Source of the DNA: a virus
Length of the DNA: 31,669 nt
IMG/VR virus record: IMGVR_UViG_3300048822_000033
Location: 1-31,669 of that record
Reading direction: 5' to 3' (one strand)
The notes beneath the pieces were generated by a model. It searched no databases. It was not told where the DNA came from and was given only the letters and a program-made list of their open reading frames with translations. Positions within the stretch are counted from its first letter, which is position 1; each line of letters opens with the position of its first letter. Shown here piece by piece: positions 1,231-31,658 of this stretch. The position numbers and the translations under genes are program-made.

Positions 1231-1626
1231 ATGATACTATTCAAAGCAATATTAATTGGGCGAGTTGGAATCAAGAAAAATGGGAAAAGTGCATTTGTCA
1301 AAAATGGAAGAACCTTTGTTACAACAAGTCAGCGTTATAAATCTTGGGAAAAACAAGCCACCTTGCAATTACTGCAAGCGAAGGTTAGGTCATCTATTGA
1401 CCTGCCAATTCGAATCCCAATCAATCTCTCCATCAAATTCTATTTTCCCAACCATCAACATGAATCCGACCTCACAAACCTTATTCAAGGCCCAGAAGAC
1501 CTCCTCCAAACTCTAGGTATAATTGAAAATGATAAGTTGGTTCATAGTCTCGATGGGTCTAGGAAAATATTCGGAGCAGATCAGTTTTACACAGAAATTG
1601 AAATTTCTACTTGCAATCTAATCTAA
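1231..1626 (+). CDS. rusA: RusA-type Holliday junction resolvase / endodeoxyribonuclease
   Basis: A 131-residue protein, close to the usual RusA length of about 120. The hallmark is the acidic pattern D80-x-x-N83, D90 (in GPEDLLQTLGII), D101 and basic K112 (SRK). In RusA such aspartates bind the metal that drives cleavage of four-way DNA junctions. The N-terminal GRVGIKKNG...KNGRTFV resembles the substrate-facing strand pair of the family. In phages the enzyme resolves or trims branched DNA before packaging, and it fits next to the ERF annealing protein. The start is not strongly supported: no clear ribosome site is seen, and translation may be coupled to the gene ending at 1221. Confidence 0.85.
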   Translation: MILFKAILIGRVGIKKNGKSAFVKNGRTFVTTSQRYKSWEKQATLQLLQAKVRSSIDLPIRIPINLSIKFYFPNHQHESDLTNLIQGPEDLLQTLGIIENDKLVHSLDGSRKIFGADQFYTEIEISTCNLI

Positions 1627-1666
1627 AGTCATTTTAATCTCTTTTTAAGAAGAATAAGGAGAAAAA

Positions 1667-11200: not shown

Positions 11201-11276
11201 TGGCTGGAACGGTAGGGATCGAACCTACGACCACAGAATTAACAGTTCTGAGCTCTACCGACTGAGCTACGTTCCA
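11201..11276 (-). tRNA. tRNA-Asn (anticodon GTT)
   Basis: Read on the minus strand, 76 bases fold as a complete cloverleaf: 7-bp acceptor TGGAACG/CGTTCCA, 4-bp D stem GCTC/GAGC, 5-bp anticodon stem CAGAA/TTCTG around CTGTTAA (anticodon GTT), a 5-base variable loop, 5-bp T stem GTAGG/CCTAC with loop TTCGATC, discriminator G and an encoded CCA. All arms are fully paired. It is transcribed against the structural operon, 28 bases downstream of a small minus-strand ORF. Phage tRNAs may offset codon bias or replace host tRNAs cut in anti-phage defence; which applies here is not known. Confidence 0.95.
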
Positions 11277-30106: not shown

Positions 30107-30298
30107 TTACTTCTCTAATTTCAAATCAATTGTTAAGACGCCATCTTTCAAACTCATATCTCTCCAAGCGCGGTAGGAGATTTTTTTACAAACTCTGCTT
30201 ACGGAACCAGTTCCTATTGATAGTTTTTTAGCGATCTTCTCTTGGGACAATCCGTCTTTTCTAAGTTTCTCAATTTTAGATATCATAGTCTCATTCAT
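30107..30298 (-). CDS. Small helix-turn-helix protein, 63 aa
   Basis: The start at 30298 (on the minus strand) is supported by AAAAGGA 9 bases upstream. Residues about 5-36 (KIEKLRKDGLSQEKIAKKLS, then GTGSVSRVCKKI) form a helix-turn-helix of the resolvase/transposase-DNA-binding type; the C-terminus is a short strand pair. The frame stays open to an ATG at 30472, with its own good ribosome site, giving 121 residues. That extension is encoded by the hammerhead and the GC-rich structured RNA, so it is treated as alternative rather than the main product. It could be a small transcription regulator. Confidence 0.65.
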   Translation of the reverse strand: MNETMISKIEKLRKDGLSQEKIAKKLSIGTGSVSRVCKKISYRAWRDMSLKDGVLTIDLKLEK

Positions 30299-30305
30299 AA
30301 CTTTG

Positions 30306-30420
30306 AATCCTTTTGTAAAAAGTGGCGGCCCAGATGTTGCCAGGACCCTTGCGTTGGCAACCCACGGATTTGTGAGAAAGCGCAAGAGCTGGTGACCAGT
30401 TATTCCCCGCCAGGGGTCAC
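30306..30420 (-). ncRNA. GC-rich structured RNA downstream of the hammerhead, possible pseudoknot
   Basis: Between the hammerhead and the HTH gene, positions 30321-30430 contain 67 G/C of 110, far above the flanks. On the minus-strand RNA GUGACC (30420-30415) pairs with GGUCAC (30397-30392). CUUGCG (30386-30381) pairs with CGCAAG (30353-30348), and GUUGCCA (30361-30355) with UGGCAAC (30342-30336); these last two interleave, as in a pseudoknot or two rival folds. A weak UGGC/GCCA stem is followed by CUUUUU near 30317. No known RNA class was recognised. The same stretch can also be read as protein in frame with the HTH ORF. Confidence 0.5.
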
Positions 30421-30421
30421 T

Positions 30422-30466
30422 CCACGGGACCTTTCTGTTTCGTCCATTAGGACTCATCAGCCGTGG
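30422..30466 (-). ncRNA. Type I hammerhead self-cleaving ribozyme
   Basis: Read on the minus strand: stem I 5' arm CCACGG (30466-30461), core CUGAUGA (30460-30454), stem II GUCC-UAAU-GGAC (30453-30442), GAAA (30441-30438), a very short stem III (AC/GU, possibly an A-G pair, loop GAAA), cleavage triplet GUC and stem I 3' arm CCGUGG (30427-30422). Every position of the hammerhead core is present, stem I is perfect over 6 bp, and both ends open at stem I, so it is type I. Cleavage is predicted between 30428 and 30427. The 2-bp stem III may make the monomer weak and favour a double hammerhead. Confidence 0.9.
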
Positions 30467-30776
30467 TTTCATTTCTTATCCTTCTCTCCAACAGGTTGGA
30501 TAACCTTTTGTAATTTGCATCGCCATAGCCATAGCCAGAGCCATCGCCATAGCCATAGCCAGAGCCATCGCCATAGCCATAGCCAGAGCCATAGCCAGAG
30601 CCATAGCCAGAGCCATCGCCATAGCCAGAGCCAGAGCCATAGCCAGAGCCATAGCCATCGCCAGAGCCATCGCCAGAGCCATAGCCATCGCCAGAGCCAG
30701 AACCATAGCCATAGCCAGAGCCAGAGCCATAGCCTACTGCTCTAGGCGCATATTCAATGGTTATCTTTGTGTCCAT
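30447..30776 (-). CDS. Gly-Tyr/Ser/Asp repeat protein, 109 aa
   Basis: TAGGAG lies 7 bases before ATG. A 14-residue leader (MDTKITIEYAPRAV) is followed by 36 Gly-x dipeptides (x = Tyr, Ser or Asp, residues 15-86), then a charged C-terminus (ANYKRLSNLLERRIRNETTA...). The start overlaps the previous gene by 16 bases, so it is coupled to it. The last six codons and the stop lie inside the hammerhead ribozyme. The repeat is likely disordered or phase-separating, or a flexible fibre; function is unknown. The other frames through the repeat are open too, as expected of such a DNA repeat. Confidence 0.65.
   Translation of the reverse strand: MDTKITIEYAPRAVGYGSGSGYGYGSGSGDGYGSGDGSGDGYGSGYGSGSGYGDGSGYGSGYGSGYGYGDGSGYGYGDGSGYGYGDANYKRLSNLLERRIRNETTADES
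30481..30495 (-). repeat. Second copy of the gene-junction repeat
   Basis: The same 15 bases as at 31457-31443, here inside the 3' end of the Gly-x repeat gene in a different reading frame, 9 bases before the ATG at 30472. AAGGA follows, so it gives a credible ribosome site for the alternative 121-residue ORF running through the hammerhead. Confidence 0.7.
30519..30734 (-). repeat. 36 tandem hexanucleotide units coding Gly-x
   Basis: Each unit is GGC plus TAT, TCT or GAT on the minus strand, so only two positions vary. The 3' part is a higher-order 24-base repeat (Gly-Tyr-Gly-Tyr-Gly-Asp-Gly-Ser) present nearly three times. Whole-unit slippage would keep the frame. Confidence 0.9.
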
Positions 30777-31066
30777 TCTTTAACTCCTACAATAGATTCT
30801 CGAGCTTTATCGCTTACTGGCAAAATCTCGATACCTTGAGAAAGATCAATAGTTGGAACCTCACAAGGAAATTTACATTCTTTGGGATTTGAGGTTCCAT
30901 GAACTGCAAGTTCACTTAAACTCGAAGCGCCTGCCCAATACCAAAGTCTACGGGCATTTTTAAGAGTCACTTCAAAGTAACCCGCGGCATTTGTAGTTTT
31001 GCTTTCAAGGTCACCGGCGAATACTCCAGCCGATTGAGTTCGAACAATTACATACTTTTTTTCCAT
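30761..31066 (-). CDS. Small phage accessory protein, DUF6948-like, 101 aa
   Basis: AAAAGGAG precedes the ATG, which shares a base with the preceding stop. The pattern KYVIVRTQSAGVFAGDLES, YFEVTLKNARRLWYWAGASSL then SELAVHGTSNPKECK and a C-terminal ILPVSDKARESI resembles the small phage family annotated as DUF6948. I make this match from memory and not by search. The fold is likely a compact beta domain. Function unknown. In this operon it directly precedes the Gly-x repeat gene. Confidence 0.6.
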   Translation of the reverse strand: MEKKYVIVRTQSAGVFAGDLESKTTNAAGYFEVTLKNARRLWYWAGASSLSELAVHGTSNPKECKFPCEVPTIDLSQGIEILPVSDKARESIVGVKEWTQR

Positions 31067-31440: not shown

Positions 31441-31658
31441 CACTTCTCTCCAACAGGCTGAGAACCAGCTGTAATCGGTTCACGTTTAAGACGAATGTCC
31501 CATGCACGTCTTTCTAACCATGTAGCAAGCATCTCTGCAGTTTTTGGTGCCATTCCGCAATGAGGTATATGACAAATTCTAATCGCACCATCACGACATT
31601 CTAGAATTACTCCGTGATGCGAAAACGTCTTTTTATTGGATTGATATTTAAGTCTCAT
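31440..31658 (-). CDS. Hypothetical accessory protein, 72 aa
   Basis: ATG 31658 preceded by GGAGAGAAGTG. The protein has HHGVILECRDGAIRICHIPHCG, with Cys/His pairs that could bind metal or simply be structural, then a helix (KTAEMLATWLERRAWDIRL) and a C-terminus of SQPVGEK. Its stop and the next start share a base. No family is recognised. Confidence 0.6.
   Translation of the reverse strand: MRLKYQSNKKTFSHHGVILECRDGAIRICHIPHCGMAPKTAEMLATWLERRAWDIRLKREPITAGSQPVGEK
31443..31457 (-). repeat. Gene-junction repeat copy with ribosome site
   Basis: CCTGTTGGAGAGAAG on the minus strand, directly before the start codon of the gene at 31440. The identical 15 bases recur at 30495-30481, and the last nine bases recur at the window edge (31669-31661). 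It contains the ribosome site GGAG. Confidence 0.7.

Follow-up and report, generated by a model that had tools for sequence, protein, structure and literature searches.

The hammerhead motif on the minus strand of the window, the whole 31,669 nucleotide stretch analysed from IMG/VR virus record IMGVR_UViG_3300048822_000033, is, as judged by sequence comparison, not a lone ribozyme but the leading part of a larger RNA with a knotted fold. The 105 bases that follow the predicted cleavage site (30427 to 30323, minus strand) are a copy of an RNA element made of two halves, here half B and then half A, which is predicted to fold as a double pseudoknot. This appears to be a new family of phage RNA, absent from Rfam 15 and from the open-access papers searched; a description elsewhere is possible. 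To our knowledge, phage hammerheads have so far had no defined job. For a large subset of them there is now a specific RNA partner, strongly conserved and in a base-exact register, and what this RNA is and why it is predicted to be cut have become testable questions.

The motif occupies positions 30466 to 30422 of the minus strand, reading CCACGG CUGAUGA GUCC UAAU GGAC GAAA C AGAAAG G UC^CCGUGG. It has the type I order and, as described in the sequence-only reading of this DNA, an intact core, a 6 bp stem I and a 4 bp stem II. Stem I is open and pairs 30466-30461 with 30427-30422; the core CUGAUGA is at 30460-30454, stem II pairs 30453-30450 with 30445-30442, and the GAAA is at 30441-30438. 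Of the features of a type I hammerhead, CUGANGA, GAAA and UH before the cut, paired stems I and II and an open stem I are present. Stem III consists of A30438-U30429 and C30437-G30430, with an A.G next around the GAAA, and has the loop AGAAAG. By the hammerhead rule, self-cleavage is predicted after the GUC, at 30428^30427, where the earlier reading had also placed it, and an independently built model of the downstream RNA (R2, below) begins at 30427.

A search with the Rfam model RF00163 (Hammerhead_1), one of the checks named in that reading, gave a match over the full length of the model (positions 1-45) with 30.4 bits and an E-value of 1.6e-5 for 601 bases searched. This is under the gathering score of 34, therefore a default Rfam scan misses the window hammerhead and reports the tRNA alone. 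The relative L123 also scores low (28.7 bits), which suggests that the cut-off misses hammerheads of this subclass. By core and position, the window sequence is hammerhead-like, not a curated member of RF00163. A type I descriptor matches once in the window and twice in 150 dinucleotide shuffles, and a stricter one, with 6 bp in stem I and 4 bp in stem II, matches once in the window and once in 150 shuffles. Judged on the motif alone, a chance origin would have a small but not nil probability. It is the match to the family that refutes chance.

Downstream of the cut, half B forms the hairpin S1 (30420-30392), in which GUGACC (30420-30415) pairs with GGUCAC (30397-30392). The S1 loop holds S3a, GGCGG (30411-30407), and the conserved AAUAAC (30404-30399). 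S2a (GCUCUUGCG, 30389-30381) then follows, its partner S2b (30353-30345) being in the loop of the half A hairpin. Half A starts with CCGUGGG (30367-30361), repeating the CCGUGG of half B (30427-30422), and its hairpin S4 (30361-30336) pairs GUUGCC (30361-30356) with GGCAAC (30341-30336). The stretch from 30336 to 30324 holds CAUCU (30336-30332) and then S3b, CCGCC (30328-30324), which pairs with S3a. The window copy has the features of the family, namely S1, S4, the S2 and S3 pseudoknots and the conserved GGGGAAUAAC, CGUGGG and CAUCU.

The covariance model R2 was built from 14 relatives that share the order found in the window, leaving out the window itself and all hammerhead sequence. It matches the window once only, at 30427-30323, with 72 bits and an E-value of 3.2e-23, and model position 1 is base 30427, the first base past the predicted cut. 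The suggestion made earlier that flanking structure might help the short stem III fits this result, the 105 bases past the cut being a covarying double-pseudoknot RNA; the accompanying suggestion of dimeric action is unsupported. Minimum free energy folding of the region as a whole gives no information (z -0.19), which a pseudoknot would lead one to expect.

The window copy is slightly atypical and, for this reason, the predicted activity of its hammerhead could be weak. Its 2 bp stem III, rightly singled out as unusual, is the weakest among 50 parsed hammerheads of the family (2-9 pairs), the other 49 having 3 to 9 bp. A would-be sixth pair of S3 is broken (G30329-G30406), and S2a is joined to half A by a short loop, where copies with half B first usually have a hairpin. 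When the hammerhead is folded alone, the CUG of its core pairs preferentially with a CAG, giving a competing fold.

Phage hammerheads are common, since a scan of IMG/VR for CTGATGAGTCCNNNNGGACGAAAC found at least 119 stretches. Among the matches listed, L088 resembles the window well beyond the hammerhead core and differs from it just past the cut by a double compensatory change, with GUUGCC-CCUGGCGGGGAAUAACU-GGCAAC in place of GUGACC-CCUGGCGGGGAAUAACU-GGUCAC. BLASTN with the stretch past the cut found the same block in phages of Enterobacter, Pectobacterium, Dickeya and Microcystis, as well as in an Aquitalea plasmid carrying phage genes, and a degenerate pattern for the block matched at least 119 stretches in IMG/VR, together with 10 contigs from GTDB genomes. 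A total of 104 copies were parsed, a few of which are near-identical. IMG/VR was also scanned with a pattern for half A only, so that copies were not picked by half B alone. This gave 26 distinct copies; half B was matched by script in 21, and the remaining five have an adjacent half B with small variations, read by eye. Hosts of the phages that bear the element include Enterobacter, Pectobacterium, Mycobacterium, Arthrobacter and Microcystis, and the host range spans Proteobacteria, Actinobacteria, Cyanobacteria and Firmicutes. Mycobacterium phage Gaia, Arthrobacter phage Constance and Pectobacterium phage Pappous are among these phages and have named laboratory hosts. There is one copy per record in the 8 records examined, where two double matches were the halves of one split element. 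In L239, two tandem elements are present at about 1380-1640 (reverse-complement coordinates), with a hammerhead in each.

Across the family, half A has the order NCGUGGG, S4 5' strand, loop with S2b, S4 3' strand, CAUCU and S3b, and half B has the order NCGYGGAGU, S1 5' strand, S3a, AAUAAC, S1 3' strand, ACC and S2a. S1 and S4 are hairpins, S2 joins the S4 loop to the tail of half B, and S3 joins the S1 loop to the tail of half A. These pairings make the element a double pseudoknot of two-fold appearance. Covariation in related phages, whose absence had been named beforehand as grounds for rejecting the motif, is strong in the copies and in two alignments. S1 is paired in all 104 copies, with up to 4 pair types per position, and S3 covaries and is paired in 90-92 of 92. 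S2 is found in every parsed copy with differing sequences and has 6-9 bp in all but one, where it has 4 bp. In MAFFT alignments, the covariation score is 0.386 for the window-type order, against 0.128 for shuffles, and 0.458 for the other order, against 0.187. No shuffle reached either score and sliding the partners destroys the signal.

The element occurs in two circular permutations, with half A first in 88 of the 104 copies and half B first in the other 16, including the window. The base N that precedes CGUGG is identical in the two halves in 101 of 104 copies, with all four letters represented, and this also holds in most copies that have no hammerhead. A junction able to swap partners would explain the shared base. 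The bases preceding the NCGUGG of half A are not conserved. An origin of the two halves by internal duplication was rejected, as their similarity beyond NCGUGG is weak (mean z 0.68) and the symmetry is one of topology only.

Where a hammerhead is present, it ends exactly before half B in both orders, and the 3' side of its stem I is the element's own NCGYGG (NCGUGG) strand. By strict parse, 76 of the 104 copies have a canonical hammerhead at the A/B junction; six more, cut short in parsing, were recognized by inspection, so that the same core and junction are found in about 80% of the copies. Around 20 have no hammerhead and mostly have a linker of 2-3 bases instead. In L151, the core is wrecked (GUAAAGA, AACG) and the stems are kept. 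These cases suggest that cutting by the hammerhead is not essential to the element. L177 has a U3/A8 core variant, which is known in natural hammerheads according to PMC3088659. L131, L154, L245, L247, L250 and L254, several of them from Firmicutes genomes, have a long insert in stem III with a common GAGTAATTA...TTATGAATGTCAA pattern.

Of 99 loci, 31 have a tRNA gene near the element, whereas 6.9 would be expected from other positions within the same loci (maximum 12 in 2000 draws). Within 600 bases there are 98 tRNAs on the same strand as the element, often only 0-30 bases away, and none on the opposite strand. The tRNA array of L187 also holds a tmRNA. Copies without a hammerhead are not significantly commoner in tRNA arrays (p 0.19). 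Outside the arrays, the neighbours are varied, with late and packaging genes recurring (terminase, portal, scaffold, antiterminator). PHROG scans and an all-against-all BLASTP comparison of the neighbours found no constant protein partner, which rules out a two-component system with a constant protein. That an RNA is common to phages of four phyla, lies near tRNAs and lacks a protein partner suggests that it either has a universal host target or works on its own. Computational support is good for the fold and the family, for the fixed position of the hammerhead and for the association with strand and tRNAs. The sole tRNA of the window is 19 kb from the element; it is a lone tRNA-Asn (11201-11276, minus strand) that lies right after an SU10-like major capsid gene, with the structural genes on the opposite strand.

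In the window, the hammerhead lies between a gene for a Gly-Tyr/Ser/Asp (Gly-x) repeat protein upstream (30447..30776, minus strand) and a gene for a small helix-turn-helix (HTH) protein downstream. The noncoding junction proposed earlier holds insofar as the site is between two genes, but the final 20 bases of the Gly-x ORF overlap the hammerhead, which is also inside a 121-codon ORF (30107-30472). The phrog_2308 profile match begins only at residue 59 of the latter, suggesting that the HTH gene probably starts at ATG 30298 (30107..30298, minus strand), about 25 bases beyond the end of the element, and that the first 58 codons of the longer ORF are probably the RNA. Pfam HTH matches to this gene are weak and below the cut-off. 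That the HTH protein has its N-terminus encoded by the hammerhead region was ruled out by the profile match from residue 59 and by a stop in the matching frame of L088, and no relatives of the 121 amino acid ORF were found in IMG/VR. It had also been proposed that cleavage separates the Gly-x and HTH mRNAs. The site does sit between these genes; the uncoupling is probably incidental, because the neighbouring genes differ from phage to phage.

Several features of the element are shared with known systems. With the type I hammerhead (RF00163) it has in common the CUGAUGA/GAAA/GUC core, the three-way junction, the open stem I and the predicted cut site. It differs in its stem I strand, which is common to the larger RNA, in its score under the cut-off, in the lack of an obvious stem I loop contacting loop II and, in the window, in the 2 bp stem III. 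The hammerheads that Perreault et al. 2011 (PMC3088659) reported from phages and prophages, for example those of PaP3 and Bcep176, are likewise at phage intergenic sites and have no known function, whereas the double-pseudoknot model has no match in PaP3, Bcep176 or 80 other phage hammerhead loci. Theta ribozymes are described in PMC10879173 as HDV-like, tRNA-associated phage RNAs that cut at the tRNA 3' end. They too are small self-cleaving RNAs, often beside phage tRNA genes on the sense strand, but the predicted cut of the element is inside or before a separate structured RNA, and Rfam scans of the window and its relatives found no HDV-like (theta) fold. The VIPR vrRNA (preprint PMC13142463) has 9-16 tandem YNNGG repeats and then a 3' tail. 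This is also a phage ncRNA with a pseudoknot tail, and hammerheads are present in some arrays. The element is single, with no constant protein neighbour, and the absence of tandem YNNGG repeats from it rules out that it is a vrRNA. The type SGC and CSG permuted hammerheads (PMC10085705) are similarly a family of RNAs whose strands occur in different orders. In that case the permuted RNA is the hammerhead, whereas here it is the host element, and the hammerhead stays type I. The element is not described in the main texts of these four sources, and at the gathering threshold Rfam 15 scans of the element and its relatives returned only tRNA and tmRNA genes, with Hammerhead_1 sub-threshold. Mimicry of rRNA was rejected, since alignments of the element to 23S and 16S are no better than those of shuffles, although GGGGAAUAAC is similar to GGGGAUAAC in the peptidyl-transferase centre of 23S.

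The broad host range, the same-strand tRNA arrays, the strict conservation and the lack of a protein partner favour a stand-alone phage RNA that acts in trans and is cut by its own hammerhead during maturation, with a probability of roughly 0.55. The mature RNA, whose cleavage, ends and action in trans we infer, would be a compact fold of two hairpins, each loop pairing with the 3' tail of the other. It would be transcribed together with its neighbours, which in about one case in three are tRNAs, and would act on something present in very different bacteria. The hammerhead would be a built-in processing device, cutting co-transcriptionally exactly before half B and leaving a 5'-OH end. In the order seen in the window (hammerhead, B, A), the cut would trim off a leader; where half A comes first, as is commoner (A, hammerhead, B), it would give two fragments, which S2 and S3 would hold together. 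Such a cut inside the RNA in the A-first copies is odd for simple end processing. Processing of mRNA in cis is rather unlikely. The hammerhead would here cut a polycistronic transcript, with the pseudoknotted B/A fold capping and protecting the 5' end that the cut creates on the mRNA (or tRNA precursor) downstream. The downstream product does start at half B in both permutations, the HTH gene of the window starts shortly past the element, and phage hammerheads often adjoin genes (PMC3088659). However, the downstream genes are not conserved, about 20 copies lack a hammerhead, and a cap would have no need of the strict unpaired GGGGAAUAAC and CAUCUGGCCC.

The highly conserved unpaired bases of the element look like a binding pocket. 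Since stem I is built from the element's NCGUGG, with the same N in both halves, a natural ligand-controlled hammerhead could be envisaged, in which the double pseudoknot is the sensor, its folding makes or breaks stem I and the 5' strand could switch between the two NCGUGG copies. This is improbable, as the identity of N is also seen in most copies with no hammerhead and there is no constant class of downstream gene, as a metabolite sensor would have. There is similarly little probability that the element is itself an undescribed ribozyme that would cleave, ligate or recombine at the repeated NCGUGG, the hammerhead being a secondary guest. Circular permutation is typical of small ribozymes, the sequence is strictly conserved in phages of distant hosts with no protein partner, and hammerhead-free copies persist; on the other hand, there is no conservation before the NCGUGG of half A to indicate a second cleavage site. 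A hammerhead standing alone or in decay beside unrelated sequence, or a chance match, could be argued from the 2 bp stem III, the Rfam score and the shuffle matches, but is very improbable indeed, and both the lone hammerhead and the chance match are refuted by the flanking match (E 3.2e-23), which comes from an independent model and starts exactly at the cut.

The stand-alone, trans-acting RNA may be extended, tentatively, to a wider reading. It is possible that the element represents a class of phage RNA not described before, in which two hairpins interlock at a four-way junction, and which would have spread like an extra 'tRNA' across phages of distant bacteria and would bind a universal host machine. 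It would be matured by its internal hammerhead, whose stem I would swap between NCGUGG copies, coupling folding to self-cleavage.

Some observations concern the other genes of the window. The Gly-x ORF is made of GGC-NNT codons, in which the second codon is almost only TAT, TCT or GAT; its repeats follow a codon period of 6 bases, and three dinucleotides account for most of what is seen at the variable place. In the same operon, positions 30761-31066 (minus strand) encode a Pfam DUF6948 protein (E 1.8e-26). Two gene ends, at 30482-30496 and 31443-31457, share a common CTTCTCTCCAACAGG (plus strand); read on the minus strand, this includes the Shine-Dalgarno-like GGAGAG of the gene that follows.

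The double pseudoknot is not common to all phage hammerheads, as a match to the double-pseudoknot model was found in L088 alone of the 83 hammerhead-bearing loci searched. Among the matches listed, a second common layout has a GUC, a closed stem I hairpin and CUGAUGAG...GAAAC in type III order (L006, L007, L008, L012, L017 and many others), often right after a terminator-like hairpin, for example GTGTCTTCAAAGACAC, and just before a start codon. A hammerhead of fixed sequence, CTGTCTCTGATGAGTCCGTAGGGACGAAAC, also recurs in many of the contigs listed (L003, L011, L014, L018, L023, L054 and others). It is sometimes directly after a tRNA gene and, in several cases, has behind it a GACCTTGTGGTGTAGG-like block, which may represent a further conserved RNA.
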